From NCBI RefSeq assembly GCF_013004595.1, contig NZ_JABEMC010000005.1:1-64000 (forward strand): a stretch of 64,000 nt of DNA, written 5' to 3'. A model generated the notes under the pieces. It did not search any database. It saw only the letters and a program-made list of their open reading frames with translations, and had not been told where the DNA came from. Positions within the stretch are counted from its first letter, which is position 1; every line of letters starts with the position of its first letter. The DNA is from Brevibacterium luteolum (GTDB taxonomy: Bacteria; Actinomycetota; Actinomycetes; Actinomycetales; Brevibacteriaceae). This document shows positions 1,726-23,997 of the stretch, in pieces. The position numbers and the translations under genes are program-made.

Positions 1726-3363
1726 GTGAGCCACCCGACGACCACCTCCGCGGCTGCCCCCGGCAGCACCGCGTCTGAGCCTGCCGCTAAGCAGCCCGGC
1801 GCTGCCGCGCGGCTGCGCGACCGGCTGGCCGGCCTCGACCCGCGTGTCTGGACGTGGGGTGTGCCGCTGCTGCTCGGCGTCATCGCAGCGCTCATGCGCT
1901 TCTACCGCCTGGGTTTCCCTGGCCGGCTGATCTTCGATGAGACCTACTACGTCAAGGACGCCTATACGCTCAGCCAGGCCGGCTACGAAAAGGCCTGGCC
2001 CGATGAGCCGAACCCTGAGTTCGAGGCCGGCAATACGAGCATCATGCTCGACGAACCGTCCTATGTCGTCCATCCGCCCTTGGGCAAGTGGATCCTCAGT
2101 CTCGGCATCGACATGTTCGGGGCGGACTCCTCCTTCGGCTGGCGCTTCTCCGCCGCGCTTGTCGGCGCGCTCTCGGTCGCCGTGCTCACCTACTTCGCCA
2201 TCCGCCTCTTCCGCTCGGTGTGGATCGGCGGGCTGGCCGGGCTGCTCATGACCGTCGACGGTGAGCACTTCGTGCATTCGCGCACCGGCCTGCTCGACCT
2301 GTTCCTCATGTTCTTCGTGCTGCTGGCCTTCGGCTTCCTCGTCCTCGACCGGGAGCAGACCAACCGCCGGCTGCGCGACCGCCTCGCCCTCACGCCGCAT
2401 GGCAAACGCGCAGCGGCCCCGGCAGCCGACCCGTGGACCTACGGCCCGGCGCTGGGCTTCCGCGGCTGGCGGCTGGCCGCCGGCGTCGCGCTCGGCTGTG
2501 CGATGGGTGTCAAGTGGTCGGGCCTGTACGCCCTGGCCGTCTTCGGCATCGCCGTCGTCGCCTGGGACATCACCTCCCGCTACCGCGCCGGTGTGCGCCG
2601 CCCGGTCACCGGGATGCTCATCCGCGATTCGGTGCCGGCGTTCCTGCTCATGGTTCCGGTCGCCTTCGTCACCTATGTCGTGACCTGGTCGGGCTGGATC
2701 TTCACCTCCGGCGGCTGGGACCGGCAGTGGGCAGCGGAGAACCCCGGCTGGTGGGACTTCCTGCCCGACTGGATCCCCGGGCTCGCGCACTACCACGCGT
2801 CTGCCTACAAGTTCCATGTCGGGCTCTCCAGCGAGCACACCTATATGTCCAACCCATGGGGCTGGATCGTGCAGTGGCGGCCGACGTCGTTCTACTACGA
2901 GTCCTACGCCGCCGGTGAGCACGGGTGCATGGTCGAGAAGTGCTCGTCTGCGATCACCTCGGTCGGCAACCCGGTCATCTGGGGGGCGGCGCCGGTGGCG
3001 CTCATCGTCCTCATCCTCGCCTGGATCGTCCGCCGCGACTCCCGTGCCGGCTTCATCCTCGCCGGCTTCGCCGCCACCTGGCTGCCGTGGTTCCGCTACC
3101 AGGACCGCACGATCTTCACCTTCTACACCATCGTCATGGTCCCGTTTGTGTGCCTGGCGATCGCCTACTGCCTCGGCCTGCTCTGGGGCGACGCCACGGA
3201 CGCCGCTGAGCGCGGCCAGTCTCTGCTCGCACGCCGGCTGGCTGTCGCCGCGTTCGGGGCGGCGGCGATCCTCGTCTTCGCGTTCTTCTGGCCGGTGTAC
3301 ACCGGTGAGGTCATCCCCTACGACTCGTGGCGCCTGCGGATGTGGAACCCCAGCTGGATCTGA
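1726..3363 (+). CDS. pmt: Dolichyl-phosphate-mannose--protein mannosyltransferase (PMT, GT39)
   Basis: A 545-residue integral membrane enzyme of the GT-C fold. Actinobacterial PMTs move mannose from polyprenyl-phosphate-mannose to Ser/Thr of exported proteins during Sec translocation. The diagnostic acidic pair lies in the first outer loop (FDETYYVKDAY, D71-E72), followed by the VHPPLGKW motif, and the protein has roughly ten or more hydrophobic segments. The length is normal for the family. GTG at 1726 is chosen because a -10 element lies just upstream and earlier in-frame codons give no sensible protein. It stands alone, just before the nonulosonic acid operon. Confidence 0.92.
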   Translation: MSHPTTTSAAAPGSTASEPAAKQPGAAARLRDRLAGLDPRVWTWGVPLLLGVIAALMRFYRLGFPGRLIFDETYYVKDAYTLSQAGYEKAWPDEPNPEFEAGNTSIMLDEPSYVVHPPLGKWILSLGIDMFGADSSFGWRFSAALVGALSVAVLTYFAIRLFRSVWIGGLAGLLMTVDGEHFVHSRTGLLDLFLMFFVLLAFGFLVLDREQTNRRLRDRLALTPHGKRAAAPAADPWTYGPALGFRGWRLAAGVALGCAMGVKWSGLYALAVFGIAVVAWDITSRYRAGVRRPVTGMLIRDSVPAFLLMVPVAFVTYVVTWSGWIFTSGGWDRQWAAENPGWWDFLPDWIPGLAHYHASAYKFHVGLSSEHTYMSNPWGWIVQWRPTSFYYESYAAGEHGCMVEKCSSAITSVGNPVIWGAAPVALIVLILAWIVRRDSRAGFILAGFAATWLPWFRYQDRTIFTFYTIVMVPFVCLAIAYCLGLLWGDATDAAERGQSLLARRLAVAAFGAAAILVFAFFWPVYTGEVIPYDSWRLRMWNPSWI

Positions 3364-3500
3364 TCGGCGCGGCCTGAATCGGCTGGCACACCCGGCCCAC
3401 CCGGAGCGTACTTCCCTTAAGTTGATGCCTCGTTCACCTCCGCGTCACACATGGGTCGCCTCTCAGTCATCCGCGATGGTCATGGTGGTTGCCTGTGACC

Positions 3501-4670
3501 ATGAACAACCAGACCAAGCGCACTGTCGCCATCATTCCCGCTCGCGGCGGGTCGAAGGGCATTCCGCTGAAGAACCTGCAGAAGGTTGCCGGCAAGACCC
3601 TGCTCGCCCGTGCGGTTGAGAGCGCCAGGGCCGCCAGCCGTATCGACACCGTCATCGTCTCCACCGACCATGACGGCATCGCCGAGGAGGCTCGGCGAGC
3701 CGGCGCCGAGGTGGTCCACCGTCCTGCTGACATCTCCGGTGACCAGGCGACCAGTGAGTCGGCCCTGCTCTACACGCTTGAGCAGCTGGCGGACAGCTAC
3801 GACATCACCGCCTTCATCCAGTGCACCTCGCCGTTCATCCACCCGGAGAACCTCGACCACGCTGTGGAGCGCGTGGCTCGCGATCAGGCTGATGTCGTCT
3901 TCTCCGCCGTCGAGGACTTCAGCTTCCTGTGGACGCTCGATGAGAAGGACAATGCCGTAGCTGTCGGCCACGATGCGGCCTTCCGCCCGCGCCGCCAGGA
4001 TCGCGCAGCGCACTACAACGAGACCGGCGCCTTCTACATCATGCGCACCTCGGGGCTTCAGAAGTACAAGCACCGCTTCTTCGGCCGCATCGAGATCGAA
4101 GAGGTGCCCGCCGAACACGCCCGCGAGATCGACTCGATGTCCGATCTGTCGCTGGCCCGCGCTGTGGCCTCCCAGCACGAGGCGATCAACGTCCTCGACG
4201 TCGACGCCCTTGTCACCGACTTCGACGGTGTGCACACCGACGACGCCTGCTACGTCGATGAGAACGGCGAGGAGACCGTCCGCGTCCACCGCGGCGACGG
4301 CCTCGGCATCAGCCGGCTCGTCAAGGCTGGCTTCCCCTTCCTCATCCTGTCGAAGGAGCAGAACCCCGTTGTCTCGCGCCGGGCCGAGAAGCTGCGCGTC
4401 GACATCGCCCAGGGCATCGACAACAAGGCCGAGGTCTTAAGCGAATGGATCACCGACAACGGCCTCGACCCGGCCCGCGTCGCCTATGTCGGCAACGACA
4501 TCAACGACATTGAGGCCTTCAGCGTCGTCGGCTGGCCGATCGCCGTCGCCGACGCCCACCCGCAGGTGCTCGCCGCCGCGCGCTCGATCCTCACCCGCCG
4601 CGGCGGGCAGGGCGCCGTGCGCGAGGTCTGCGACCTCATCGATCCCGAAAAGACCAGATCAGCTGCGTGA
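3501..4670 (+). CDS. neuA: CMP-nonulosonate (acylneuraminate) cytidylyltransferase fused to KdsC-like HAD phosphatase
   Basis: A 389-residue two-domain protein. Residues about 9-225 are a CMP-sialate/CMP-Kdo-type cytidylyltransferase with the CTP-binding signature IPARGGSKGIPLKN (12-25). Residues about 235-385 are an HAD phosphatase of the KdsC type, with DFDGVHTD (nucleophile D240, acid D242), a downstream Ser/Lys segment (LSKEQ) and GNDINDIEA as the metal-binding loop. The first domain activates a nonulosonic acid with CTP; the second would remove phosphate from a 9-phospho precursor. ATG 3501 is preferred, with GTG 3495 and TTG 3489 as alternatives; none has a strong ribosome site. It is followed at 57 bases by neuB. 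The exact sugar (Neu5Ac, Kdn or another) cannot be read from sequence. Confidence 0.88.
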   Translation: MNNQTKRTVAIIPARGGSKGIPLKNLQKVAGKTLLARAVESARAASRIDTVIVSTDHDGIAEEARRAGAEVVHRPADISGDQATSESALLYTLEQLADSYDITAFIQCTSPFIHPENLDHAVERVARDQADVVFSAVEDFSFLWTLDEKDNAVAVGHDAAFRPRRQDRAAHYNETGAFYIMRTSGLQKYKHRFFGRIEIEEVPAEHAREIDSMSDLSLARAVASQHEAINVLDVDALVTDFDGVHTDDACYVDENGEETVRVHRGDGLGISRLVKAGFPFLILSKEQNPVVSRRAEKLRVDIAQGIDNKAEVLSEWITDNGLDPARVAYVGNDINDIEAFSVVGWPIAVADAHPQVLAAARSILTRRGGQGAVREVCDLIDPEKTRSAA

Positions 4671-4727
4671 CATCCACTCACGCCACCCCGTGCAACACCT
4701 CGCACCGAAACGATTGGAGTTCCCAGC

Positions 4728-5645
4728 ATGACTCAGAACGCTGATAACGCAGCACAGCCCTGCCCCTTCCGCCAGACCGCCGCGCCGGTGGCGATCGGCG
4801 AGCACCTCGTCGGCCCCGGCCAGCCGGTGTACGTCATCGGGGAGATCGGCATCAACCACAACGGCGATGTCGAGATCGCCAAGCAGCTCATGGATGTCGC
4901 AGCCGAGGCAGGCGCCCAGGCGGTGAAGTTCCAGAAGCGCAACCCCGATGTCGCCGTGCCGGAGGCACAGAAGTCGAAGATGCGTGAGACTCCGTGGGGC
5001 ACGATGACCTACATCGACTACAAGTACAAGGTCGAGTTCGAGAAGGACGAGTACACCGAGATCGACCGCTACGCCAAGGAGAAGGGCCTGCAGTGGTTCG
5101 CCTCGCCGTGGGACACCGATTCGGTCGATTTCCTGGAGAACGAGTTCGACTCGGTGACCTACAAGGTCGCCTCGGCCTCGCTGACCGACTTCGAACTGCT
5201 CAAGGCGATCGCAGCCACCGGCAAGCCGGTGCTGTGCTCCTCGGGCATGTCCGACTGGAAGATCCTCGATGAGGCCGTTGAGTGCTTCGACCGCGACAAA
5301 CTCGTCCTCATGCACTCGACTTCGACCTACCCGCTGCCGCCGGAGGAGACCAACCTGCTGGCGATCCCGGCGATGGCTGAGCGCTACGGCGTGCCGGTCG
5401 GCTACTCCGGTCATGAGACCGGCCTGCAGATCTCGCTGGCGGCTGTGGCTCTCGGTGCGGTGACCGTCGAGCGCCACATCACCATGGACCGCGCGATGTG
5501 GGGTTCGGACCAGGCCGCCTCGCTCGAACCTCACGGCTTCACCACCCTCGTGCGCGACATCCGCATCCTGGAAGAGGCCATGGGCGACGGCGTCAAGCGG
5601 ATCATGCCCGGCGAAGAGACGAAGATCTCCTCGCTGCGCAAGTGA
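4728..5645 (+). CDS. neuB: Nonulosonic acid (sialic acid/Kdn) synthase, NeuB family, without SAF domain
   Basis: A 305-residue TIM-barrel enzyme that condenses phosphoenolpyruvate with a C6 sugar (ManNAc, mannose or a 6-phosphate) to make a C9 nonulosonic acid. The PEP-binding signature IGEIGINHNGD is at 37-47, and KFQKRNP and SSGMSDW are further barrel motifs. Typical NeuB proteins are near 340-350 residues with a C-terminal SAF/antifreeze-like domain; this one ends naturally at the linker (EETKISSLRK) where that domain would begin. GGAG lies about ten bases before the ATG. No neuC-type 2-epimerase is present nearby, which leaves the substrate open. Confidence 0.88.
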   Translation: MTQNADNAAQPCPFRQTAAPVAIGEHLVGPGQPVYVIGEIGINHNGDVEIAKQLMDVAAEAGAQAVKFQKRNPDVAVPEAQKSKMRETPWGTMTYIDYKYKVEFEKDEYTEIDRYAKEKGLQWFASPWDTDSVDFLENEFDSVTYKVASASLTDFELLKAIAATGKPVLCSSGMSDWKILDEAVECFDRDKLVLMHSTSTYPLPPEETNLLAIPAMAERYGVPVGYSGHETGLQISLAAVALGAVTVERHITMDRAMWGSDQAASLEPHGFTTLVRDIRILEEAMGDGVKRIMPGEETKISSLRK

Positions 5646-5660
5646 TGTCAGACTGCGGTC

Positions 5661-5686
5661 GGGGCAGCCTCACACGAGGCTGCCCC
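5661..5686 (+). terminator. Hairpin after neuB
   Basis: A perfect 10-bp stem (GGGGCAGCCT / AGGCTGCCCC) with a 6-base loop starts 15 bases after the neuB stop. There is no T-tract, as is common for actinobacterial hairpins. It lies before the GT2 gene of the same direction, so it may terminate partly or set relative expression of the two halves of the operon. Confidence 0.6.
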
Positions 5687-5734
5687 GGCCGCGGCATCTG
5701 CGCGCGTCCTCCGTCCGCCACCTGAAAGCAGAGC

Positions 5735-6718
5735 ATGCCCGATCCCACCCTGAGCGTCATCATCCCAGCTCACAATGCTGAGCCGTTCATCGCCGAGACT
5801 CTCCTGTCGCTGCGCTGCCAAGACCTGAGCCACGAGGAATTGGAGATCGTCGTCGTCAACGACGGCTCGGCCGACGCGACTGCCGAGATCGCGAGCGACG
5901 CCTGTCGCAGCGTCAAGCACTTCCAGCTCATCACCAATGAGCAGCCCAGCGGTGTCTCAGCAGCCCGGAACACCGGCCTGCGCGCCGCCGCCGGCGACTA
6001 CGTCACCTTCCTCGATGCTGACGACTGGTTCGCCAACCGGCACCTGCGGGTTCTGCTCGACGCGATCATCCGTCTCGGGGTCGACTTCGTACGCTGCGAC
6101 CAGATCCAGGCGATCGATAAGACCCGCCAGCTGCGCCGTGCCCCGGTCTTCCGCCGCAATGAGGCCCTGCGCACCCACGACTACATCGTCCACGGCTGGA
6201 CGCAGACGATGGTCGACTTTCCCAACACGAACACCGGCGTCTACGCACGCCGTCTCGCCGACAACGGCACCCTGTTCTTCGATGAGTCGCTTTACAGCGC
6301 CGAGGATCGCGAATGGAACTGGCGGCTCATGCTCGAAGCCGATTCCTTCGCCGTCATCGATGCGCCCGGTGCATACTACCGTCGCGGTGTCAGCGACTCT
6401 CTGACCGCGGTCTACAACGAAACGCAGCTGCATTTCATCCCCAGCTGTGCGAAGACGATCGCCCAGACCCGCCGCTATGACAATCCGGCCTTCACCCTCA
6501 AGGCTCTGCACAACCTGTTCGCATTGGCCGACATCCACCTCCAGCGACGCGCTGAGATGCCCCGCAATCTGTATCGCCGGCTCGTCGACGGCGTGGCTGA
6601 GGCGTCAGCGACTGCCACTGCTGATGAACTCGACGAGGTGATCCTCTCCTTCCGGCCTGAGCGCGTGCGCCGGCTGCGCCCGATCATGCGCCGGATGGAA
6701 GCGAAGGGAGAAGCATGA
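5735..6718 (+). CDS. Family 2 glycosyltransferase
   Basis: A 327-residue GT-A enzyme. The N-terminal nucleotide-sugar domain shows SVIIPAHNAE, VVVNDGSADAT and the metal-binding DADDW, in the usual order within the first 100 residues. There are no clear membrane helices, so it acts at the cytosolic face. It is translationally coupled to the next gene (ATGA overlap at 6715-6718), which puts it in the nonulosonate operon, where it probably primes or branches the polymer. Donor and acceptor are not predictable. Confidence 0.85.
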   Translation: MPDPTLSVIIPAHNAEPFIAETLLSLRCQDLSHEELEIVVVNDGSADATAEIASDACRSVKHFQLITNEQPSGVSAARNTGLRAAAGDYVTFLDADDWFANRHLRVLLDAIIRLGVDFVRCDQIQAIDKTRQLRRAPVFRRNEALRTHDYIVHGWTQTMVDFPNTNTGVYARRLADNGTLFFDESLYSAEDREWNWRLMLEADSFAVIDAPGAYYRRGVSDSLTAVYNETQLHFIPSCAKTIAQTRRYDNPAFTLKALHNLFALADIHLQRRAEMPRNLYRRLVDGVAEASATATADELDEVILSFRPERVRRLRPIMRRMEAKGEA

Positions 6719-8091
6719 AACAGGTCTTCGTCGTCTCCTCGTGGCTGCAGCTGCTGAGCATCAGCACGACCATCCGCAATGAGCGCATCGCCTCGGCTGA
6801 GGAGCGCGTGCTCATCGTCAGTGACACCCGCGCTGTCAACGAAGTCGGCGCATCGTTCGCCGAACAGCCGATTTCCGCTCCCCTGCTCGACGTCTTCGAC
6901 CGCGTCATCGACTACAATTCCTGGATCTGGCCGCAGCACCCGTCCCAGTGGTCGCCGCTGGTCAATGAGCAGCCGATGTGGTCGAAGGCCCTCTTACGTG
7001 CATGGGACCTGGCCGACTGCCATGTGCAGCTCTTCATTGAGTCCGTGCAGGGCAACCCGGCTCAGGCCCTCAGCTGCATCTTCACCGACGCCGAGATCTT
7101 CGTCCACTCCGATGGCCTCATGACCTACGGCCCCACCCGCAGCAACCTGCCGCCACAGCTATGGCAGCGCCTGAGCGGTCTGATCTACATGGACCTCGTA
7201 CCCGGCGTCGACCCGCTGCTTCTCTCAGAATTCGCCGGCCTCGACCGAATCGCTCTCGAGCCGGCCGAGCTGCGCACTGAGGTCGAACGCGTCGCCGCTG
7301 CTGTGGACACCTCCGAACTGCGCGTTCACCAGGACGCCTGCATGATCGTCGGCCAGTACCTAGCCGATGTCTCCCTCTTCACCCTGGAACAGGAGACCGA
7401 GCTGTACATGCAGATGATCGACCAGGCGATCTCCTCCGGCCACCGCCACATCTACCTCAAACCGCACCCTTCGGCCTCACAGTCGATCCAGAGCGCGCTG
7501 CAGCATCGCGCTCGCCTCCGCGGTGTGTCCTTCGATGTCGTACCGGCATACCTTCCCGTCGAGCTCGCGGCCCTCGTGCTCACACCCAACTCGATCTACA
7601 GCTGCTTCTCCACCGGGATGGTGACGGCCTGGCGGTTGTTCGGCATACCGGCGCGTGCCTTCGGCACCCGGGACGCCATGGAGGAGTTCCGCCCGTTTGA
7701 GAACTCCAACCGCATCCCGGTCACCATCTGCGACTACCTCTTCACCGACGGGACATCGGACAAGGAGCCCCTGCAGGAGGTCGTCAACGCGGTCAGCTAC
7801 TGCATGCGAGCACAGATCCTGCCGCACCTGCGCGGTTCGACGGCTGACTTTTTGCACCGCAGCCTGCCGCAGTACCGGCACTGCTTCAAGCGCCGCCGGC
7901 TGACGAAGCTGCGACTGCCTGGCAGCTTGCCGCCTCCCAACCGCGCCCAGCAGGTGCGCAGCCTCGGACGCCGAACGGCTCGCAGCGGACTCGAAGCGCT
8001 GCGCAACAGCGGTCAGCTCGCCCAGAGGACCGCTGATCTGCTCAGCAGTCAGGCCAAGCGCATCCGGCAGCGGGCAGGCGAACGGAAGTGA
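6715..8091 (+). CDS. Polysialyltransferase-like glycosyltransferase
   Basis: A 458-residue protein resembling bacterial alpha-2,8-polysialyltransferases and their relatives, GT-B enzymes that use CMP-nonulosonates. The N-terminus has the pattern FVVSSWLQLLS; the region near residues 130-155 carries FVHSDGLMTYG; and a KPHPS motif (about 246-250) is followed by a conserved SxxSCFSTGM element that together form the CMP-sugar site in this family. The C-terminus is very basic (repeated RR, KRRR), consistent with binding to the membrane or an anionic polymer. It overlaps both neighbours by four bases. With neuA and neuB it makes a coherent set for building a nonulosonate polymer. Confidence 0.78.
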   Translation: MKQVFVVSSWLQLLSISTTIRNERIASAEERVLIVSDTRAVNEVGASFAEQPISAPLLDVFDRVIDYNSWIWPQHPSQWSPLVNEQPMWSKALLRAWDLADCHVQLFIESVQGNPAQALSCIFTDAEIFVHSDGLMTYGPTRSNLPPQLWQRLSGLIYMDLVPGVDPLLLSEFAGLDRIALEPAELRTEVERVAAAVDTSELRVHQDACMIVGQYLADVSLFTLEQETELYMQMIDQAISSGHRHIYLKPHPSASQSIQSALQHRARLRGVSFDVVPAYLPVELAALVLTPNSIYSCFSTGMVTAWRLFGIPARAFGTRDAMEEFRPFENSNRIPVTICDYLFTDGTSDKEPLQEVVNAVSYCMRAQILPHLRGSTADFLHRSLPQYRHCFKRRRLTKLRLPGSLPPPNRAQQVRSLGRRTARSGLEALRNSGQLAQRTADLLSSQAKRIRQRAGERK

Positions 8092-10373
8092 CATCGGCCG
8101 ACCCCAACCCGGCAGCCAGCAGCTCGCCAGTCAGAAGAAGCTCTGCGAACATCTCGCACGCCTGGGTGGAATCGCCGTTGCAGCTCGTCTCGGCGGTCGA
8201 GGCACGACTGCCGGAAGAACAGCTGGAGATCCATGCGCGCATCGATGCAGAGGGCATGGACAGCTTTCTGCAGCGCTTCCGCAGCGAGTGGCTGCCTGCC
8301 GGCGTTACGATCGTCGCGATGGCCGAGATCGATCCGCAGATCTTCACCACCCGCAGCGGCCGGCTGCTCATCGGTGACCTGTGCTCCGGGCGCCTGCAGC
8401 GGGCCATGCTTGCCTCAGGACTGCAGCTGCGTCGGCCGGTGGTGGTCATTGATGACGGCTTCGCCACCCTGCATGCGGTGCGCGAACTCGTCAGCCGCCG
8501 GTCCCGACCGCTTGTGCGCCCGCGTCAGAAGACAAGCCGCTCCCGCCGGGCAGCCGCCTACGCCGTGGCTATGCTGCTGCGGGCAGTGATGCACGAGCGT
8601 CGGCTGTCGTGGACCACTGCCCTGCAGGTACCCGACGAGCTCATCATCTCCTTCACCGCAGCCGGCGGAACCGTGCGCCGGCACACCTTCGAGTACGTCC
8701 GCAGCCTGCCGGATGCCGGCAGCCGCGTACCCGAACGCATCATCATCGGTTCGGCGTTGGCCGCCGATGACCTCATCACCGCCGAAGCCTACTTCGACTG
8801 GCTGGCGGCGACCGTCGAGAGCCTGCAGCCCAGCGCCGAGGCCCCAGTGGCCTACTTCGCGCACCGCCGGGAGACCCCGGAGCTGCTCGCCCGAGTCGCC
8901 CAGCTGCCGCACGTCACCGTCCGGCATGCCCACCTGCCGGTCGAGATCCGCCTGACTACGGCCCCGGCCGGCGCACAGGTCCGCAGCCTGCCCACCTCGG
9001 CGGTGGCCAATCTGCCGGCCACGATGCAGGAACCGAACATCGCCGTCACCGCGATCCCGCCGTCCTGGTGGACCGGCACAGCACCTGACCGGCTGCGCCA
9101 GCAGCTGAATGCGGCCGCCGCAGCACCGGACACCGACGGCAGTGAGTACCGGATCGTGGCGATCGCCGACAGTGAGTCCTACCTCAAGTGGGCCGCCCGG
9201 GTGCTCGATTCCCTCGGCCCGGACATCGACGCGCAGCTGTGGGTCATCGACACTCCGATCCGTCCGACCGCCGGCCAGATCTCCCACGCTCTCGCCGGCT
9301 CCTCATGGGCAGGCACCCAGGTGCCGGTCGTCGAGCGCGCTGAGCTGCACGACCGGCTCGCCGCCGCCGGAACCGATGTGGTGCTCGCCGCGGCGACTGG
9401 CCCGGTCGTCCAGCAGATCGCGGCCACCGCTCACCGTCTGCCGCGGCGGCCCGGCCTGGCTACCGGACTGCCGGGCATCGGCTTGCCGGCCCGGCAGAAG
9501 GGCGTGCGGTACCGCCGCGACTGCGATCTGTTTCTCGCCCACTCCCACCACGAACGTGAGGCATACCGCGCTGCAGCCACCCGCGCCGGAGTGGCACTGG
9601 AGATCACCGTCGCCCGGCTGCCGTTGCTGACCAGCACCGATGTGCCCGAACCGGCCTTCGAGATGCAGGCTGACGGCACTGCCCCGGTGCCCACCCGGAT
9701 CGTCTTCGCCCCCCAGGCCAAAGTGCCCACTGAGCGTCAGGAGCGGATCGCGATCCTACAGGCGCTTGCCGCCTTCGCCCGCCGGCACCCTGATTCCGAG
9801 GCGATCGTCAAGGTCCGGTCGCTGCCCGGTGAGCAGGAGACCCATCATGAAGAGCACAGCTACCTCTCGCTCATTCAGGAACTCACTGCCTCAGGGGAGC
9901 TCGCAGCTGGAGAGCTGTCGATCGCAGTCGGGCCCATGGATGAGTTCCTCACCGCTGGCTCGGCTCTTGTGACGGTGTCGTCGACGGCCGCGCTCGAATC
10001 GATCGACCGCGGCCTGCAGACGCTCATCATCTCCGATTTCGGGGTTTCGGAAGATCTCCTCAATGCAGTCTTCGACGGTTCCGGGATTCTCGGCTCGCTG
10101 CAGGACCTGTCTGCCGGACGCATCGGCTTTCCCAACGCGACGTGGCTGCAGGAGAACTACTTCCACCCTCCCTCGGCGGAGGTCAACCGGGCGTTTCGGA
10201 TCCTTGCCGCACGGTCTCAGCAGTATCAGCTGCGGTCTCAGCCGTGGATCAAGCACATCAACAGCTGGCGAGCCGTGCGCGCCGAACTGCGCACTGCAGC
10301 GCCGCAGCCGGTCGTCGACGGCTACCGCTTCGCTGTGAAGCAGGTCAGAAGGCTCAGCCGTCGGCTGCGCTGA
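8088..10373 (+). CDS. Two-domain putative glycosyltransferase: polysialyltransferase-like N-terminus plus DUF6716 C-terminus
   Basis: A 761-residue protein starting at a GTG that overlaps the preceding stop (GTGA). Residues about 20-290 begin with HAWVESPLQLVSAVEA and contain VVVIDDGFATLHAV, a pattern of polysialyltransferase-like proteins. Residues about 352-761 begin YRIVAIADSESYLKWAARVL, which I recognise as the start of DUF6716, a family of putative actinobacterial glycosyltransferases that often accompanies neuA/neuB genes. Within it TRIVFAPQAKVPTE and a Ser-rich TVSSTAALES motif look like a GT-B nucleotide-binding half. The tail is basic. Likely role: a polymerase or bifunctional transferase of the nonulosonate polymer. 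Family naming is from memory and should be checked. Confidence 0.72.
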   Translation: MTSADPNPAASSSPVRRSSANISHAWVESPLQLVSAVEARLPEEQLEIHARIDAEGMDSFLQRFRSEWLPAGVTIVAMAEIDPQIFTTRSGRLLIGDLCSGRLQRAMLASGLQLRRPVVVIDDGFATLHAVRELVSRRSRPLVRPRQKTSRSRRAAAYAVAMLLRAVMHERRLSWTTALQVPDELIISFTAAGGTVRRHTFEYVRSLPDAGSRVPERIIIGSALAADDLITAEAYFDWLAATVESLQPSAEAPVAYFAHRRETPELLARVAQLPHVTVRHAHLPVEIRLTTAPAGAQVRSLPTSAVANLPATMQEPNIAVTAIPPSWWTGTAPDRLRQQLNAAAAAPDTDGSEYRIVAIADSESYLKWAARVLDSLGPDIDAQLWVIDTPIRPTAGQISHALAGSSWAGTQVPVVERAELHDRLAAAGTDVVLAAATGPVVQQIAATAHRLPRRPGLATGLPGIGLPARQKGVRYRRDCDLFLAHSHHEREAYRAAATRAGVALEITVARLPLLTSTDVPEPAFEMQADGTAPVPTRIVFAPQAKVPTERQERIAILQALAAFARRHPDSEAIVKVRSLPGEQETHHEEHSYLSLIQELTASGELAAGELSIAVGPMDEFLTAGSALVTVSSTAALESIDRGLQTLIISDFGVSEDLLNAVFDGSGILGSLQDLSAGRIGFPNATWLQENYFHPPSAEVNRAFRILAARSQQYQLRSQPWIKHINSWRAVRAELRTAAPQPVVDGYRFAVKQVRRLSRRLR

Positions 10374-16995: not shown

Positions 16996-17316
16996 TTCCG
17001 GCCTGCCGCGCTTGTGCCGCGTTCCTGAGTCCGCTGCCTGTCAGTGTGCATGCTCCAGCTCTCTCCATCGTTCATCTCCAACCGTCTATCGATTCAACCC
17101 TACGGGAGCACAGCCGGGTTCCCACCCGGCCTGCAACCGGGTTCAAGGCGGAGCCCCGGGGCGTGGGTCACGTACGGTGGCGCGCGGCCTTCTAAGAAGC
17201 GGACGCCAGCCTTGCTATGATTCTGTGAGCGTTTCGACGTTCCACCTGCCCCTGCGACCGTCTAGCAGCTTGTTTGAGCGGGTGCGCTCACTCAGCTCAT
17301 GAAAGGGTTCTGCAGT
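16996..17316. other. Intergenic region upstream of the TagF-like gene
   Basis: No coding signal was found here. A possible -10 element TATGAT lies at 17216-17221 on the plus strand, giving a leader of about 90 bases to the TagF-like start; no good -35 box accompanies it. Two copies of CCGGGTTC (near 17112 and 17144) flank a short GC-rich stretch of unknown meaning. Confidence 0.5.
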
Positions 17317-18579
17317 ATGAAGGATTGGCTCAGGCAACAGGCAGCGGGAGTCCTGAAATCGCGAGCCTGGCAACGCACCCGCACATGGATCCGCGGTTAC
17401 CGGGCCCCCGCGGCCGGCCACGAGATCGACGACATCCTCGTCCCCGCCGAGGTCGTCGCGTATTTCGGTGACCACGCCGAAAAGATCTACCAGCTGGAGC
17501 AGTGGCTGCCAGTACTCGAAGAACTCGACAAGACCCACCGCGTTGTCCTCGTATTCCGGAAGCTCAATGCGCTTCGGGCTCTTAAGGGCAGGACAAAGCT
17601 GCAGAAGGTTTTCATCCGCCGTTTCGACGATCTCATCACCCTGTACTACGAAAACGCGTACGCTCTTGGTCTGTACGTGAACAACGGTGTGACGAACTTC
17701 CAGTCGCTGAGCTACCCACCGATGGTGCACGTTCATGTCAATCACGGAGAGTCTGACAAGATCAGCATGGTGTCCAATCAGGCGAAGGCCTATGACAAGG
17801 TGTTCGTCGCCGGCCAAGCTGCTGTCGAACGCCACCGGCGGGCGCTGATTGACTTCAACGAAGCGAACCTCGTTCGCGTCGGTCGCCCGCAGCTCGACAT
17901 TCCGCGCACCTCCAGTCTGCCGCCGACCTCCAAGCGCACCGTGCTGTACGCGCCGACGTGGGAAGGTGAGAACGACTCGAACAACTACACCTCGATCGAT
18001 GTCTACGGCCCGCAGATCGTGGAGGCGGTGCTAGCGCTGCCGAATGTGCGCCTCGTCTACAAGCCCCATCCGCGTGTGCAGGAAACGCAGAACTCGACGA
18101 TGGCTGAAGCCGATGCGCAGATCCGTGCGCTCATAGCCGATTCAAACGCCGCTGGCGGTGAACATCTCGTCGAAATGCAGGGCGACATCCTGGGCATGTT
18201 CGATGCCGTGTCACTGCTCATCACCGATATCTCCAGCGTCGGCCTCGACTTCCTATACCTGCACCCCGAGGTGCCGATCGTACTGACCGATCGCCGCACG
18301 GATCGTGCGACGCTCAATGCCGAGTCTCCGGTCTCTCAGGCAGCGCCAGTCATCGATGAATCGACGATCGGGCAAACGGTGCTGCTGCTCCAGGAGGCGA
18401 TCGAGCATGACAAGTTCGCTTCAGCGCGTGCGGAAATGCGCACGTTCTACTTCGGCGACGGTGAGCCGGGGTCATCGTCGCAGGCGTTCCTGTCAGCGAT
18501 CGACCAGCTCGTCAGCGACCGCCGCCACCAACTGCGCAACTACGACGTCGAGGGTAGCAACATGGAAGCTGCCGACTGA
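17317..18579 (+). CDS. CDP-glycerol glycerophosphotransferase (TagB/TagF-like)
   Basis: A 420-residue GT-B-type enzyme that adds or polymerises glycerol-phosphate from CDP-glycerol onto a wall polymer at the inner membrane face. Family motifs visible are VNHGESDK (about 143-150, the catalytic-His region), LYAPTWEGE, VYKPHPR, and LLITDISSVGLDF, equivalent to the TDxSS nucleotide site of TagF. ATG 17317 is chosen over ATG 17299 because GAAAGG stands about ten bases before it. The 65-base gap to the next glycosyltransferase suggests co-transcription. A second, more diverged copy is at 25660. Confidence 0.85.
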   Translation: MKDWLRQQAAGVLKSRAWQRTRTWIRGYRAPAAGHEIDDILVPAEVVAYFGDHAEKIYQLEQWLPVLEELDKTHRVVLVFRKLNALRALKGRTKLQKVFIRRFDDLITLYYENAYALGLYVNNGVTNFQSLSYPPMVHVHVNHGESDKISMVSNQAKAYDKVFVAGQAAVERHRRALIDFNEANLVRVGRPQLDIPRTSSLPPTSKRTVLYAPTWEGENDSNNYTSIDVYGPQIVEAVLALPNVRLVYKPHPRVQETQNSTMAEADAQIRALIADSNAAGGEHLVEMQGDILGMFDAVSLLITDISSVGLDFLYLHPEVPIVLTDRRTDRATLNAESPVSQAAPVIDESTIGQTVLLLQEAIEHDKFASARAEMRTFYFGDGEPGSSSQAFLSAIDQLVSDRRHQLRNYDVEGSNMEAAD

Positions 18580-18644
18580 TATATTGCGGCAGAATTTGAC
18601 TGCTCGATTCACTTCGAAACGATTTGAGACTGGACTGCTCAACC

Positions 18645-20528
18645 ATGTTGATTTCAAACTCTACAGCCTTCGCGCCGCTTCGCAGACACATTCAACAAGC
18701 TCGCGTCAAATTCCCCCGCATACAAATCGTAAGCCTCACTTGGAATATCCCTGAAAATTTCGGTGGACTCACAAACGTTCTGCTACGGCGCACGTCCCTA
18801 ATTGCCCAACTTGGTGGTTTCGATGTGCCAATCTTGACACTTGGCCCTCAGCCAGATGTGAAGGCCAAAGAGCGAGAACTTCGAGAGATTGGAATGATCG
18901 GGAAACGTGTCCACCTGCGCAACGTGTGGGTTGAAATCGCAGCGATGAATGATCGTCAGCTCGATCGACTAGCCATTTCAGGCTTACCGGTACCTCAGAG
19001 AACCCATCCTAGTCCGTCGCACATTGAAGATTCTGACGATAAATGCCGGCGGACGTCTTTCGACTCAACTGGCGCTACCCTGCGAATCGACCACCTGCGT
19101 GCGGACAATACTGTCGTCGTGCGGGACGAACGTAAGGATCCTAACGGGCACGGCGTTATTCTATATAATACTTCTGGAAAACCCCTTTGCAGGTGGGACC
19201 GAATTCGCGACCTGTACTTTGCGTGGATGGACGCGGCCATCGGTGACGAAGAAACATTCTTGATCAACGACTCGGCTTTTATTGGATCTTTTCTTGGACA
19301 TTACCAGCGCCCCCACGTTCGAAAAATTCAAGCGATTCACAGCGCACACCTCGAGCCAGATGCTCCGTCGCTCTATGGCCCCGTATTTGCGGCGAAGAAG
19401 GAGATCATTACTGATCATGCTCAGTTCGACGCCTTGACACTGCTCACTGAGCGTCAGTGCAGTGAACTCCGTAAAGCATTTCCGGCTGCAAATAATACTG
19501 TTGTAATTCCAAATTCGCGACGCGTGGCCAAATCCGGCACTCAAGATATGCGTCACCGAAACCCCGGGTCGGGTATTATCTTAGCAAGATTGTCAAGCGT
19601 AAAACGAATCGACATCGCAATAGATTCTCTGCGAATATTAAAAGAAGACCGAAAGACGACAACACCGACACTAGACATCTTCGGCACCGGGCCAGATTTG
19701 TCACTACTACAAAATTTAGTATCCAACCTGAACCTCAGCAACGACGTAAAATTTCGGGGCTACAGTCACGAGACTTCGAATCTTTTGAACCAAGCATCTT
19801 TCCTCGTACTCAGTAGCAAAAGCGAAGGGTTCGGCCTCGTACTCGTCGAAGCAATGGCTGCGGGGTGCGTTCCAATCGCTTTTGACATCCGATACGGGCC
19901 AAGCGACATCATCACTCACGGTGTCGATGGGTTCCTTGTGCCCGATGGAGACTCCAGTGCGCTTGCCGCAACGATAGCCGAGTTTCTCGAAATGAGCGAG
20001 AAGGACCGTCTCAAGATGAGGAATGCAGCAAGAGCGAATGCTCGGAGGTTTGGGGATGTCACCGTGACACAAATGTGGGCTGAACTCTGCCACCGGTTAA
20101 TCAAACGTCCTGTCCGTCCACTTGTAGCCGGGCGATTTGCCGAAGTATCGTTGATTCGACTGAGTTCTCAAGATTCATTTTCCGCAGTGATACTTTGCGG
20201 TAGGACTGCTGGTGGCTGGGCTTCAGCCGGTGCGGACACGTATCTGAGGGCTCGGACACGTAGCGGACTATATGGCTTTGAAGTACCAGTACGCTTGCAT
20301 GATGACGAAACTTTCGATGTCTCTATACCCTTGACTCATTTTGCTGCTCAAAGCCCAGAAGTATACGATTTCTGGCTCACCGTAGCTGGCGCCCAGCAAC
20401 ACCGACGAGTTTCCGTTGCGACAGGCGCTGAGATCATCCCCCCCTCCTCAACCAATTCGCAGGTTGGACGATTCTACAAAACGGACCAAGGCAACCTCAG
20501 CCTTGCTATCGAGCCGGCACGGCTCTGA
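18645..20528 (+). CDS. Family 4 glycosyltransferase, TagE-like, AT-rich (probably acquired)
   Basis: A 627-residue GT-B enzyme. The core (about 20-500) has SLTWNIPENFGGLTNVLLRR, a donor domain with ILARLSSVKRIDIAIDSL and the EX7E site SEGFGLVLVEAMAAG. The layout, with an inserted region near 100-200 and a C-terminal beta-rich extension, resembles TagE-type enzymes that put glucose on poly(glycerol-phosphate). Codon use is unlike the flanks, with many AAA, AAT, ATA and TTA codons, and base composition drops sharply from about 18580 to 20530. The start is uncertain: ATG 18645 or TTG 18624, neither with a strong ribosome site. Role in teichoic acid decoration is inferred from neighbours. Confidence 0.8.
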   Translation: MLISNSTAFAPLRRHIQQARVKFPRIQIVSLTWNIPENFGGLTNVLLRRTSLIAQLGGFDVPILTLGPQPDVKAKERELREIGMIGKRVHLRNVWVEIAAMNDRQLDRLAISGLPVPQRTHPSPSHIEDSDDKCRRTSFDSTGATLRIDHLRADNTVVVRDERKDPNGHGVILYNTSGKPLCRWDRIRDLYFAWMDAAIGDEETFLINDSAFIGSFLGHYQRPHVRKIQAIHSAHLEPDAPSLYGPVFAAKKEIITDHAQFDALTLLTERQCSELRKAFPAANNTVVIPNSRRVAKSGTQDMRHRNPGSGIILARLSSVKRIDIAIDSLRILKEDRKTTTPTLDIFGTGPDLSLLQNLVSNLNLSNDVKFRGYSHETSNLLNQASFLVLSSKSEGFGLVLVEAMAAGCVPIAFDIRYGPSDIITHGVDGFLVPDGDSSALAATIAEFLEMSEKDRLKMRNAARANARRFGDVTVTQMWAELCHRLIKRPVRPLVAGRFAEVSLIRLSSQDSFSAVILCGRTAGGWASAGADTYLRARTRSGLYGFEVPVRLHDDETFDVSIPLTHFAAQSPEVYDFWLTVAGAQQHRRVSVATGAEIIPPSSTNSQVGRFYKTDQGNLSLAIEPARL

Positions 20529-20534
20529 ATCCGA

Positions 20535-21986
20535 TCAGCGCCTCACTGCGTTCTTGATCTTCCGTGCCCAGGCCAGGATTTCACCAAGCCGACCGGTAGT
20601 CAGCTTGATGCTGATATTGCCCTGTGCTGTACAGTACGGATGCACGTTCCCGCGCGCCACCAGCGAAGCCTCGACTTCAGGCGCCGAAGCGACGCGGGCC
20701 CGCTGCACCAAATCCTTGCGCGGGTCGTCGTCATAACCCACTCGGCGGATGAGGTGAAGATCGACGACGCGTTCACTCGGAACCAGGAGTCTCCGCCAGC
20801 CCAACCGGAACTCTGCCGTGATGGTGTTGCTCTTTTTATCAGCGCCTCGGGTCAGCCGTACCGCCGGAAGCATGTAGCTCCAGTTCGAGCCGCGCTTTGA
20901 GACTTGCAGGACATGCGACTCGTCCACAGCGCCGCCAGAGAAGACCCGGGAACGGATCTGCAGCTCGGCACCGCGGGAGGTGAGTTGCCACCGCACAAGC
21001 GTGGGGGCAAGCTCAACAGCTGCGATCTGTGAACCAACGCGAATCGCCTCGATGTCGCCGGCTCTCACCCATTCGCTGCGACTGCGGAATGGCTCCTCAA
21101 GGGCGGCTTCCAGTTCGACGGGAATGAACTCCCGCTGGAACTGCTGATGCACCTCGATGAATCGCTTTGCGCGCTCCTGCTTAAGCCTGACGAACCGATC
21201 CGGTGCGTAGAACTTCAAACATTTGCGACGGTACAAATCGAGGATGATCCGGTCGGCTCGCTTAGGATCCGGATCGTAATCGCGAATGTTCCGGCTCACC
21301 TGAGCGATCGCCCAGGTGTACTCATCGGGATCGAGGTAGCGAGAGCTGATGTTCTGCCCGTCGTCGCGGGACCGGATCTGATAGTAGTCTGCGCCGGTGA
21401 CCACCGACACCCGCTGCGCTAGGAAATAGGCCCGCGAGAGCATGATGCCGTCTTCGAGCCTGACTTTCTCCTCGGGGAATCGCAGTCCGTGCTTGTCGAG
21501 GAACGTTCGACGGAAGAGCTTCATCGGGCCCAATGTCTTCAGCACGCTCGAAAGGTCCGCATCGATGCGCGTACGGGCATAGAGCTTGGGTTGCACCCAG
21601 CGGCCGTTAATCGACCCCATCTGCGGCAGCACGATATCGGAGGCGTGCGCATCAGCAAAGTCACACATCACGGTGAACGCACTGGGGTCGAACTTGTCAT
21701 CGGAGTCCGCGAAGAAAACATAGCGGCCGCGAGCCGCATTCAGAGCCCGGTTGCGCGGCTGGCCTGGCCACCCCCAGTTCTCCTGATGGATGACGTGCAG
21801 GTTGCTGTGGGTGGCGGCAAAGCGGTCGAGTTCGTCACCGCTACCGTCCGTTGAGCCGTCGTCAACGGCAATGACTTCGAACTCTGCGGCCGGCATCGTC
21901 TGTGAGAACACAGAATCGAGAAGCTCTGTGAGGTATGGCATCGAGTTGTAGACGGGGATGATGAGGGAGAGCCTTAGCTCGGTCAT
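20535..21986 (-). CDS. Family 2 glycosyltransferase (teichoic-acid type)
   Basis: A 483-residue protein with an N-terminal GT-A domain: LSLIIPVYNSMPYL, VIAVDDGSTDGSG, WGWPGQPRNRALN and the metal-binding FADSDD. Residues about 330-480 form a separate, probably beta-rich, C-terminal region as in TarS/TarP-like wall-teichoic-acid glycosyltransferases. ATG 21986 follows GGGTGG and the next upstream residues are not conserved-looking. It ends six bases from the convergent GT4 gene and is the last gene of the minus-strand teichoic operon. Confidence 0.82.
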   Translation of the reverse strand: MTELRLSLIIPVYNSMPYLTELLDSVFSQTMPAAEFEVIAVDDGSTDGSGDELDRFAATHSNLHVIHQENWGWPGQPRNRALNAARGRYVFFADSDDKFDPSAFTVMCDFADAHASDIVLPQMGSINGRWVQPKLYARTRIDADLSSVLKTLGPMKLFRRTFLDKHGLRFPEEKVRLEDGIMLSRAYFLAQRVSVVTGADYYQIRSRDDGQNISSRYLDPDEYTWAIAQVSRNIRDYDPDPKRADRIILDLYRRKCLKFYAPDRFVRLKQERAKRFIEVHQQFQREFIPVELEAALEEPFRSRSEWVRAGDIEAIRVGSQIAAVELAPTLVRWQLTSRGAELQIRSRVFSGGAVDESHVLQVSKRGSNWSYMLPAVRLTRGADKKSNTITAEFRLGWRRLLVPSERVVDLHLIRRVGYDDDPRKDLVQRARVASAPEVEASLVARGNVHPYCTAQGNISIKLTTGRLGEILAWARKIKNAVRR

Positions 21987-22093
21987 TTCCACCCTTTCCG
22001 ATTCAGGTGTTTCTCCACACGAGAGCGGTTCTGGTGAGTGCTGAGCCGCACGAGCCGCGGGCCTCACACCCTTGCCCAAGTGAACCATCAGCT

Positions 22094-23167
22094 CTACACT
22101 ACTGGCGGTCGGCCGTAGCGGGCCATCCGCAGCAGCCCGCGAGTGGAGAGCTTTTCGTGATCTTCTTCAGGACCCCAGGGGTCATCGCGCCAACCATCGA
22201 TCCAGCCGCTGAACCAGGGTCGCAGCTGCTCGGGTTTGGTTGCCCAGCGCGTGGTCTGCATGAGCGTCCAGGACGCCACGTAGGCGAGGCTGAACGGCAG
22301 GGGCAAGTTGCGTCTGGCCAGCCACACGCGGTTGCGGGCGTTCATGTAGAAGTACTCTTCGTGCCGCCGCTGATCGATCACTGGGTGGGCGACCGAGACA
22401 TCGCCCATGTACCAGACCTGGTAGCCAGCATCCCAGATCCGCCAGGCCAGTTCGATGCCCTCATGGGCGTACCAGAACGGCGCTGGCCAGCCGCCACAAG
22501 CGTCGAAGGCCTTGCGCTGCAGGCACACCGCCCCCTCCCACACGGAGAAGACGTTCGAGGACTGCTCAGCGCTGCCCTTCTTCAGGCGCGGAATCCAGCG
22601 TTTGGGTGCCGGTGTGCCGGAGGGGTCCTCGACGCGCGGTTGGATGAGACCGATGCTGGGCTTGGTGCGCATGAGCTGCGCCATGCGCATGAGGGTCGTG
22701 TCGTCAGGCAGCCAGGCATCATCATCGAGGAAGAAGAGGAACTCCCCCTCGACATGCGGCACGCCCTCGTTGCGTCCGGCCGGAATGCCGATGTTGTTCG
22801 GAAGCGCCTGCGTCTTGACCTGCGCCGGCAGGCCAGATGGCTCCCAGCCGTTGCCCACGCAAATGATGTCGAGATCCACGCCGCGCTGAGCGAGCAGCGA
22901 ATCAATGCCGCGGCGCAGGTCATCCATCCTCTTACCCTGTGTAAGCACGACGACACCGAAGGAGTACAGACGCGACTTCTTCGCAGCAGCTTTCTCCTCC
23001 GCAGCCGAGGTGCCGGGCAGGTGGCCGTGGCGGGCGCGCACCGCACGTTCGAGTTTGCGGCGCTCCCGCGAGCTGTCACGCAGGGACCCGAGCTGCGGGG
23101 TGTCGAAGGCCCCCGTCGGGATCGGCCGAGTGGCGTCCTTGTGCGTATGGATGTGTTCGTGTGTCAT
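22094..23167 (-). CDS. Family 2 glycosyltransferase (galactofuranosyl-/rhamnosyl-like)
   Basis: A 357-residue protein: a charged, His-rich N-terminal 75 residues, then a GT-A domain with SFGVVVLTQGKR, LPNNIGIPAGRNEGV and the acid cluster FFLDDDAWLPDD, followed by WYAHEGIELAWRIWDAG, a typical acceptor-side motif of this GT2 group. ATG 23165-23167 has CAAGGAG upstream and overlaps the stop of the CDP-alcohol phosphotransferase. It belongs to the minus-strand teichoic operon; the sugar transferred is unknown. Confidence 0.83.
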   Translation of the reverse strand: MTHEHIHTHKDATRPIPTGAFDTPQLGSLRDSSRERRKLERAVRARHGHLPGTSAAEEKAAAKKSRLYSFGVVVLTQGKRMDDLRRGIDSLLAQRGVDLDIICVGNGWEPSGLPAQVKTQALPNNIGIPAGRNEGVPHVEGEFLFFLDDDAWLPDDTTLMRMAQLMRTKPSIGLIQPRVEDPSGTPAPKRWIPRLKKGSAEQSSNVFSVWEGAVCLQRKAFDACGGWPAPFWYAHEGIELAWRIWDAGYQVWYMGDVSVAHPVIDQRRHEEYFYMNARNRVWLARRNLPLPFSLAYVASWTLMQTTRWATKPEQLRPWFSGWIDGWRDDPWGPEEDHEKLSTRGLLRMARYGRPPVV

Positions 23168-23997
23168 GCCGACAATCTCCTTGAGGCCATGATCGCCAGG
23201 AAGTGCCCGACCACCGACAGCGCACACAGCGGCACTAGGAGGGTGATGAGCCAGCGCTCTCCAATGAGCTCTGGTCCGGCACTGGTTGAGGCGACGAGGG
23301 TGACGATCGCGGCGATGACGGCCAGGATCGACATCTCGACTGAGTGGTACAGGCGGTGAAAGGGAACGAAGCGGGCGACCAGTTTGAGGGTGGCGAGCAG
23401 ACCTGAGGGAATGGCGGTGGCCTGAGCGGTGTCCGGCAGCTTGCCGAGGCCGTTGAAGGCGCGGGCGACATGCACCATGTCGTTAAGAGCCTTGTTGAGA
23501 ATCACAAGGAACCCGAGGATCGCTCCGGCCAGCAGGTACGGGTATGAGCCCGCCGGGTCGTCGTGCAGGTTGGAGAACTCACCGACGGCACGGGCGCCCA
23601 GGGCGATCGCAACGAGTCCTTCGGTGGTGTAATGGCCGACTTTGTCGAGAAAGACGCCCGTGGCCCCCATCGTGCCGCGCCAGCGTGCGACCTCACCATC
23701 GCAGCAGTCCAGGTACATCTGCAGCTGCGAGAAGAACAGTGCCAGCAGCGGGCCGAGCAGCCCCGGAATCAGCAGCGAGGCTGCGATTAGCCAGCCGGAG
23801 AGGATCATGAGTCCGGTGACGCCGTTGGCGGTGATCGGGGTGCGGACGAGCAACACCGTCGTATAGATCGAGAAGTGGCGCAGGTACAGCTGTGCGGTCC
23901 AGTGCTCGGCGTTCTTCCGGGCACGCACCTCTGGAGGCTGCGCGATAGCGCGCAGCTCTTCGAGCGTCGGCCGCTGCGGCCGGACAGGACTGAGCAC
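23164..23997 (-). CDS. CDP-alcohol phosphotransferase family membrane protein, variant active site
   Basis: A 277-residue protein with about six membrane helices. The family motif D-x2-DG-x2-AR-x8-G-x3-D-x3-D is present as DCCDGEVARWRGTMGATG followed by VFLDKVGH: D97, D100 and D118 are in place but the fourth Asp is His122. GTG 23997 is the start, just behind GGAGGG; the ATG two bases earlier is in another frame. It lies between galE and a GT2 in a teichoic-type operon, so it may move a phospho-alcohol from a CDP-linked donor to a lipid or glycan. Substrate unknown. Confidence 0.83.
   Translation of the reverse strand: MLSPVRPQRPTLEELRAIAQPPEVRARKNAEHWTAQLYLRHFSIYTTVLLVRTPITANGVTGLMILSGWLIAASLLIPGLLGPLLALFFSQLQMYLDCCDGEVARWRGTMGATGVFLDKVGHYTTEGLVAIALGARAVGEFSNLHDDPAGSYPYLLAGAILGFLVILNKALNDMVHVARAFNGLGKLPDTAQATAIPSGLLATLKLVARFVPFHRLYHSVEMSILAVIAAIVTLVASTSAGPELIGERWLITLLVPLCALSVVGHFLAIMASRRLSA

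Follow-up and report, generated by a model that had tools for sequence, protein, structure and literature searches.

We analysed a 64 000-nucleotide stretch of the Brevibacterium luteolum genome (contig NZ_JABEMC010000005.1, positions 1–64 000 of the forward strand; hereafter the window, which sits on contig C17 of the 2.97-Mb host genome), and in particular a run of five genes at 3501–10373. A first-pass annotation, made from the sequence alone, had described these genes as one operon for a possible wall polymer of sialic acid or of Kdn (2-keto-3-deoxy-D-glycero-D-galacto-nononic acid), with no neuC-type gene among them. The five open reading frames (ORFs) named there, with their domains, were confirmed at these positions from the ORF list, Pfam and NCBIfam, and a neuC-type gene is indeed absent from the locus. 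The arrangement is not a chance one, as the same set recurs in the genus and in the class. The features are as follows.

3501–4670, + strand: CMP (cytidine monophosphate)-nonulosonate synthetase–HAD fusion, predicted to be a CMP-Kdn synthetase and Kdn-9-phosphate phosphatase (Pfam, NCBIfam, residues, PDB)
3525–4160, + strand: NeuA-like cytidylyltransferase domain (PF02348, CTP_transf_3, residues 13–224 of the 393-residue frame, E = 7.8e-29)
4194–4640, + strand: HAD phosphatase domain (PDB and NCBIfam matches, approximately residues 236–385)
4728–5645, + strand: short NeuB-type synthase, predicted to make Kdn-9-phosphate from mannose-6-phosphate and phosphoenolpyruvate (PF03102, E = 1.7e-76)
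5653–5694, + strand: stem-loop (19 pairs, loop of four bases) in the gap between neuB and the GT2 gene (RNA fold compared with shuffles)
5735–6718, + strand: GT2 glycosyltransferase, predicted to transfer a hexosyl or N-acetylhexosaminyl residue of the repeat or linkage unit (PF00535, E = 4.1e-36)
6715–8091, + strand: polysialyltransferase-like protein, a predicted CMP-Kdn transferase (PF07388, E = 3.6e-27, 96.2 bits against a cut-off of 23.3)
8088–10373, + strand: 761-residue fusion of a sialyltransferase-like domain (residues 1 to about 348) and DUF6716 (Pfam, models, fold searches)
8088–9131, + strand: N-terminal half of the fusion, GT-B fold, with invariant D122-D123-G124 and H259 (model, alignment)
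9153–10187, + strand: DUF6716 domain, GT-B fold, nearest to UDP-N-acetylglucosamine (UDP-GlcNAc) 2-epimerases (residues 356–700, Pfam E = 1.1e-128)

The frame of the first gene begins at a TTG at 3489; translation more probably starts from the ATG at 3501.

The HAD domain was compared with BT1713, the phosphatase of the Bacteroides thetaiotaomicron Kdn route, over 69 domains, namely that of the window and those of every locus, 68 in number, in which tblastn detected the domain. Both aspartates of motif I, the lysine, and D104 and D107 of motif IV are invariant (69/69). Equally invariant is the triad formed in BT1713 by E56, R64 and K67 (E290, R298 and K301 in the window, numbered from 3489), which we take to be the residues that set specificity for Kdn-9-phosphate; BT1713 variants altered at E56 (4hgq) and at both E56 and K67 (4hgr) are present in the PDB. 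The KdsC-type phosphatase structures 3n07, 3ij5 and 3i6b carry R at position 56 and either A or T at position 67, 3n1u has A and Q at the two positions, and 3mmz, which is the best PDB match of the HAD part in the window, retains E/R/K. Because residues 56 and 67 differ in the structures named KdsC, the triad separates the Kdn-9-phosphate type from the KdsC type in the examples compared. The score against the KdsC model NF007019 is 109 bits, below the cut-off of 208.

The fusion of this domain to the synthetase was followed in loci L051–L130, the 80 best-matching among at least 579 relatives, so that counts from this set apply to close relatives only. A NeuA match is found in 76 of the 80 and an HAD match in 67 of these 76. 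The two lie in a single open frame at 65 of the 67 loci; L052 also has them in one ORF, and the frame of L126 is interrupted by a stop. In 13 of the 76 loci one ORF of 678–714 residues holds NeuA, HAD and NeuB (L058, L060–L064, L070, L072, L074, L075, L077, L080 and L082; hosts are Nonomuraea, Streptosporangium, Herbidospora, similar genera and one Isoptericola), and a Pfam check of two such ORFs gave cytidylyltransferase, HAD-type and NeuB matches in both. The conserved catalytic residues and triad, together with these triple fusions, support the earlier suggestion that the fused phosphatase points to a 9-phosphorylated intermediate. NeuA and a short NeuB with no HAD match in the flanks occur at L081, L084, L086–L089, L095, L108 and L116, six of which are from Curtobacterium.

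The synthase encoded at 4728–5645 is of the short form (305 residues); no SAF domain was seen, PF03102 being its only Pfam match above cut-off, and this is the sole place in the genome that matches PF03102. An NCBIfam match to PseI is below cut-off. As to the supply of its sugar substrate, a mannose-6-phosphate isomerase (PMI) is present in this genome and in all 57 genomes of our Brevibacterium sample. A neuC gene elsewhere in the genome, which the first-pass annotation had named as part of what would speak against its reading, was not detected: profile searches found PF02350 (NeuC/WecB) nowhere in the 2.97 Mb, and PF07221 (AGE) is absent both from this genome and from all 57 of the genus. 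A NanE match in the genome (23.9 bits, positions 83–181 of a 373-residue frame) was not counted as NanE because it is partial and below the cut-off of 27. On these searches, N-acetylneuraminic acid (Neu5Ac) synthesis by way of NeuC, NanE or AGE was rejected for this genome. Within the genus, PF02350 is lacking in 15 of the 57 genomes, 14 of which hold the short NeuB. Among these 14, G020 and G052 have full-length NanE matches (E = 1.9e-49 or better), and G025 and G028 have matches of 29.0 and 27.2 bits in 383-residue frames, barely above cut-off.

Two protein families of the locus resemble sialyltransferases, and their conserved residues were read from alignments of the PF07388 protein (35 of 44 loci plus the window, 36 sequences) and of the N-terminal half of the fusion (38 of 45 loci plus the window, 39 sequences). 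A third alignment covered DUF6716 (39 of 63 loci plus the window, 40 sequences). The halves were aligned separately; a joint alignment of fused and separate proteins was dropped, as it gave 12–18% identity for the N-terminal half compared with 28–46% by tblastn. In bacterial sialyltransferases D/E-D/E-G and HP are described as functional motifs, with one enzyme carrying HA in place of HP (PMC2169525; here and below, papers are cited for those portions of them that were available), and in the polysialyltransferase MhPST the base is proposed to be E153 and the departing CMP is stabilised by H291 (PMC5517516). The PF07388 protein shares with the GT38 enzymes (MhPST, NmB-polyST) the acid before G, the HP and the S-T motifs: D133 is found in 35 of 36 sequences (E in the remaining one), and G134, H251-P252 and S299-T300 in all 36. 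It differs from them in that the first acid of D/E-D/E-G is replaced by S, A or G in 36/36.

The N-terminal half of the fusion (model pLDDT, predicted local distance difference test, 90.8) models as a GT-B fold nearest to polysialyltransferase and to GT80-type sialyltransferases. Its best match in the fold search (VIA) is MhPST (Z = 15.2, root-mean-square deviation 6.8, 312 residues aligned), and ranks 3–12 are Photobacterium and Pasteurella sialyltransferases (Z = 14.0–12.4); this lead is modest, because rank 13 is a plant C-glycosyltransferase with Z = 12.3. D122-D123-G124 and H259 are invariant in all 39 sequences and an S/T pair stands at 303–304. The HP motif is not found, the invariant H being followed by R in 39/39, so that HR stands where GT38 enzymes have HP. 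Comparison of its profile with that of PF07388 is suggestive only (probability 23%, E = 0.00088; 98 columns aligned, the H and S/T motifs among them), and comparison with the DUF6716 profile gave no match. No Pfam match above cut-off was obtained for residues 1–355 of the 761-residue protein, and the two family members that were tested are without a Pfam match in this part. Profiles of the PF07388 protein, the N-terminal half and DUF6716 found nothing significant in the PDB (SiaD appeared at E = 1 for the PF07388 set).

The distribution of these families was examined in the 57 Brevibacterium genomes and in a class sample of 296 genomes taken from a larger group. NeuB matches occur in 54 of the 57 and the short type in 53, and the DUF6716 protein is present in exactly those 53. 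In the class sample, where the short NeuB is defined by a hand-set threshold of 340 bits (which leaves out G231, at 246 bits and 47% identity and without either family of the DUF6716 protein, and all weaker matches), all 54 genomes with the short NeuB also have DUF6716, as do 4 of 242 others, and the N-terminal-half family is present in 44 of 54 and 1 of 242, respectively; these co-occurrence counts are not independent of shared ancestry. NeuB is 71–83% identical in five Brevibacterium records, and short NeuBs are 57–70% identical across the class. One genome of the genus, G055 (L157), is without the short NeuB and DUF6716 and carries a different NeuB (33–34% identical) and NeuA (30%); a different nonulosonate may replace Kdn there. 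Outside the actinobacteria, NeuBs of 56–60% identity accompanied by an HAD domain were seen in L107, L115, L119 and L130 (record titles Chloroflexi, Blastopirellula marina, Longilinea and Chloroflexota), with the NeuA–HAD fusion in the first three. Unexpectedly for a family linked to actinobacterial walls, DUF6716 also scored above its cut-off in the control genome of Escherichia coli.

Gene sets of this kind are already known from Streptomyces. In S. coelicolor, SCO4873–SCO4882 is described as a teichulosonic acid cluster controlled by PhoP, with Ostash 2014 cited for the cluster (PMC13011467); SCO4873–81 is said to include neuAB (PMC2267785), SCO4881 is given as NeuB (PMC2367054), and the PhoP control operates under phosphate limitation (PMC13011467, PMC2267785). 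Planobispora rosea genes have been paired with SCO4877, SCO4878 (GT2), SCO4879, SCO4880 (annotated as sialic acid synthase) and SCO4882 (PMC8269224), and the order that we find in P. rosea L070, which is GT2, PF07388 protein, DUF6716 and N-terminal-half family, fits these tags. The single entry for SCO4880 and the lack of one for SCO4881 would be explained by the fact that NeuA, HAD and NeuB form one ORF in L070. Of the 9 Streptomyces loci, 7 have all six families (NeuA-HAD, NeuB, GT2, polysialyltransferase-like protein, DUF6716 and N-terminal half) grouped, as does Planobispora L070; of the two exceptions, L123, which reaches the edge of the stretch, is without the polysialyltransferase-like gene, and L126 is without this gene and GT2 in the stretch examined. 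Since the six families are thus grouped and fit the SCO4877–SCO4882 part of the cluster, the Brevibacterium set is of the known kind. It differs from that of Streptomyces in that the last two families are fused, the order being NeuA-HAD, NeuB, GT2, polysialyltransferase-like protein and fusion on one strand. Chemically, the Streptomyces teichulosonic acid consists of galactose and Kdn (PMC11481543), and a Kdn-teichulosonic acid is present in Promicromonospora citrea (PMC6801904). Promicromonospora loci L066–L068, which are from species other than citrea, contain the NeuA–HAD fusion and a short NeuB.

The N-terminal half and DUF6716 share a single ORF in the window and in no fewer than 10 other genomes of the genus (G008, G010, G011, G021, G022, G024, G029, G030, G032 and G039; in G032 as two matches in one frame, in G010 also by its ORF) and in none of the 43 relative loci that have both halves; elsewhere the two are separate genes. 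Variation is unevenly spread along the locus. Compared with the sister genome G010, protein identity is 96% for the protein O-mannosyltransferase-like (PMT) gene just upstream of the locus, 96% for NeuA-HAD and 99% for NeuB, as against 62% for GT2, 71% for the PF07388 protein, 65% for the N-terminal half, 72% for the DUF6716 half and 83% for a GtrA gene. In three more distant species the synthesis proteins NeuA-HAD and NeuB are 68–76% identical, GT2 35–43%, the PF07388 protein 24–37%, the N-terminal half 38–49% and the DUF6716 half 53–61%. The pattern suggests that a varying polymer is built on a steady supply of CMP-Kdn; alternatively, the transferases may evolve faster in place. In G010 the first PF07388 gene and the fusion are separated by a second PF07388 gene (L154:5646–7337), and an additional one is present in L155 as well. 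The drop in identity between window 1852–10373 and L154, together with the extra PF07388 gene, resembles a serotype-switching cassette.

Taken together, these results lead us to read the locus, with a probability of roughly three in four, as the Brevibacterium version of the actinobacterial gene set for teichulosonic acid, a Kdn polymer; location in the wall, identity of the sugar and enzyme substrates are predictions. The Kdn route through a 9-phosphate that the first-pass annotation had invoked is favoured by the presence of PMI, the absence of PF02350 and PF07221, the phosphatase triad and the Streptomyces gene set. It would comprise the same three activities as in B. thetaiotaomicron (BT1714 synthase, BT1713 phosphatase and CMP-Kdn synthetase), with phosphatase and synthetase fused here and NeuB of a short form. 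The short NeuB would condense mannose-6-phosphate derived from ManA with phosphoenolpyruvate to give Kdn-9-phosphate, and, judging from domains, residues and fusions, the fused HAD domain would remove the 9-phosphate and the attached cytidylyltransferase would form CMP-Kdn. Fold and motifs suggest that Kdn would be transferred from CMP-Kdn by the PF07388 protein and by the N-terminal part of the fusion, and that GT2 and the DUF6716 half might add partner sugars or start the chain; how the work is shared out among all of these is a guess. Going by the Streptomyces and Promicromonospora precedents, genes outside the locus would probably supply the factors that link the polymer to the wall.

A more specific proposal for the 761-residue protein is tentative. 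The meningococcal W-135/Y capsule polymerases fuse a hexosyltransferase and a sialyltransferase, and thus resemble it in having two GT-B halves per chain, one of them sialyltransferase-like; however, the halves are in reverse order here and the DUF6716 half is nearest to epimerases. By a similar logic the protein may be a bimodular Kdn-polymer synthase, in which an N-terminal CMP-Kdn transferase and a C-terminal DUF6716 hexosyltransferase act in turn to assemble the repeat; together with the PF07388 protein it would form a variable module that, on a constant supply of CMP-Kdn, yields a Kdn polymer specific to each Brevibacterium species.

Several observations weigh against the teichulosonic acid reading. 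The HAD domain misses the cut-off of the equivalog model for Bacteroides Kdn-9-phosphate phosphatase (NF058599, 96 bits against 180), and T34 and D103 of BT1713 are replaced by R and N, respectively, in 69/69 domains. The fused phosphatase is not universal, because 9 of the 76 NeuA loci show no HAD match inside the fetched flanks. The best NCBIfam match of the cytidylyltransferase half is PseF (128 bits, below the cut-off of 205.7). A PF02350 epimerase is present in 42 of the 57 genomes of the genus, so that N-acetylmannosamine (ManNAc) is, to go by gene content, probably available in most of it, and the argument from lack of ManNAc rests on the minority of the genus without the epimerase. The Streptomyces comparison was made with loci of Planobispora and of Streptomyces other than S. 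coelicolor, which is itself not among the loci. The only Brevibacterium wall structures in the literature found, as far as its available portions go, are the mannitol and glycerol teichoic acids of B. iodinum, and our search brought up no publication describing Kdn from walls of this genus. Finally, the model of the DUF6716 half (stretch starting at 9132, pLDDT 93.6) is closest in the fold search to UDP-GlcNAc 2-epimerases (best Z = 21.8, root-mean-square deviation 3.7, 304 residues aligned).

The last point bears on an alternative in which the sugar is Neu5Ac or its 9-phosphate, made from ManNAc or ManNAc-6-phosphate that a cryptic epimerase supplies, DUF6716 standing in for NeuC. Ranks 1–32 for DUF6716 are nearly all UDP-sugar 2-epimerases, two NeuC entries among them, and its company with the short NeuB in 54/54 genomes would suit such a role. 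Ranks 33–50, however, are GT-B transferases, which share the fold. DUF6716 has no PF02350 match and, compared with eight Brevibacterium PF02350 epimerases, it aligns over only 45 C-terminal nucleotide-binding columns (E = 0.006, probability 6%). The carboxylates of the epimerases are presumably to be expected at residues 83–131 of the modelled stretch, a region placed by sequence only, and no column there has D or E in at least 36 of the 40 rows. Because no such column stands in this presumed region and profile similarity to epimerases does not extend over the full length, we read DUF6716 as a GT-B transferase with moderate confidence, on sequence grounds, and as an epimerase it is unlikely; a literature search found no paper on DUF6716. 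As, in addition, Kdn is reported in walls of Streptomyces and Promicromonospora, genera that have this gene set or its core (PMC11481543, PMC6801904), we consider a Neu5Ac product very unlikely. A product of a different nonulosonate type, for instance pseudaminic or legionaminic acid, is the reading to which we give the least credence of all, the sub-threshold matches to PseF and PseI notwithstanding: by Pfam, neither the five cluster genes nor the two flanking genes show a domain of a UDP-GlcNAc dehydratase, an aminotransferase or an acetyltransferase (PseB, PseC and LegB were not looked for in the genome). A 9-phosphatase is also not known to have a place in those pathways.

We likewise give very little credence to a reading in which the HAD part of the fusion has no phosphatase function, comparable to the C-domain of vertebrate CMP-sialic acid synthetase, and NeuB uses unphosphorylated mannose. 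The nine loci that do without an HAD match would agree with it, and the significance of the vertebrate domain is itself called unknown (PMC8636478). However, a purely structural role would not require HAD aspartates, lysine and E/R/K triad to be invariant in 69/69, and an algal Kdn-9-phosphate synthase used mannose-6-phosphate, not mannose (PMC6200933). A different question is where the sugar goes. CMP-Kdn could serve a capsule, an exopolysaccharide or protein glycans instead of a peptidoglycan-linked polymer, in line with the PMT gene just upstream, with the lack of any ligase or exporter domain in the cluster genes by Pfam (the rest of the genome was not searched for these), with the strong divergence of the transferase half between species, as in capsule loci, and with a Kdn-containing capsule that Serratia is described as making in the portions of the literature available. 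On the other hand, the Kdn polymers of Streptomyces and Promicromonospora are wall polymers (PMC11481543, PMC6801904), and a match to PF04464 (teichoic-type glycerophosphotransferase) 7 kb from the locus indicates that wall polymers are made here; we therefore regard this destination as unlikely.

If the teichulosonic acid reading holds, it supplies a concrete route for the actinobacterial polymers, from mannose-6-phosphate through Kdn-9-phosphate and Kdn to CMP-Kdn, and extends the prediction of Kdn to 53 of the 57 Brevibacterium genomes. DUF6716 and the sialyltransferase-like family that Pfam does not match would gain testable roles. That family, its fusion to DUF6716 and the split between constant and variable genes are the less expected parts of the locus. 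The contrast between conserved synthesis and divergent transferases may reflect species-specific wall antigens or phage receptors.

The first-pass description of the locus as one operon was not confirmed. The last three genes are joined by four-base overlaps, ATGA at 6715–6718 (GT2 and PF07388 genes) and GTGA at 8088–8091 (PF07388 and fusion genes), while the gaps are of 57 bases between the first two genes and 89 bases between neuB and GT2. The latter gap holds the hairpin, whose stem (5653–5694) is unbroken with 17 Watson–Crick and two G–U pairs; the folding energy of the gap is −52.1 kcal/mol (z = −4.6), and none of 200 shuffles was equally stable. With this gap and its 19-pair hairpin between neuB and GT2, the five genes can be called only a possible single operon. 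No T-tract accompanies the hairpin, and it is not among the entries of the terminator scan; it is possibly a terminator, an attenuator or an mRNA-processing element. Stretches following neuB in 24 other Brevibacterium gave −41.7 to −81.1 kcal/mol over 110 bases, values that were not compared with shuffles and that come from folds which may extend into the next gene. Stem runs of at least 12 pairs were predicted in 23 of the 24 (7 in the remaining one, L018), with varying positions and sequences.

A second surface-polymer region is present at 17299–25070 of the window, with a PF04464 glycerophosphotransferase-like gene, a GT4 gene, a GT2 gene with a TarS linker, another GT2 gene and a gene of sugar-nucleotide epimerase type. 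The GT4 gene (18624–20528) has a low GC content at third codon positions (0.51).

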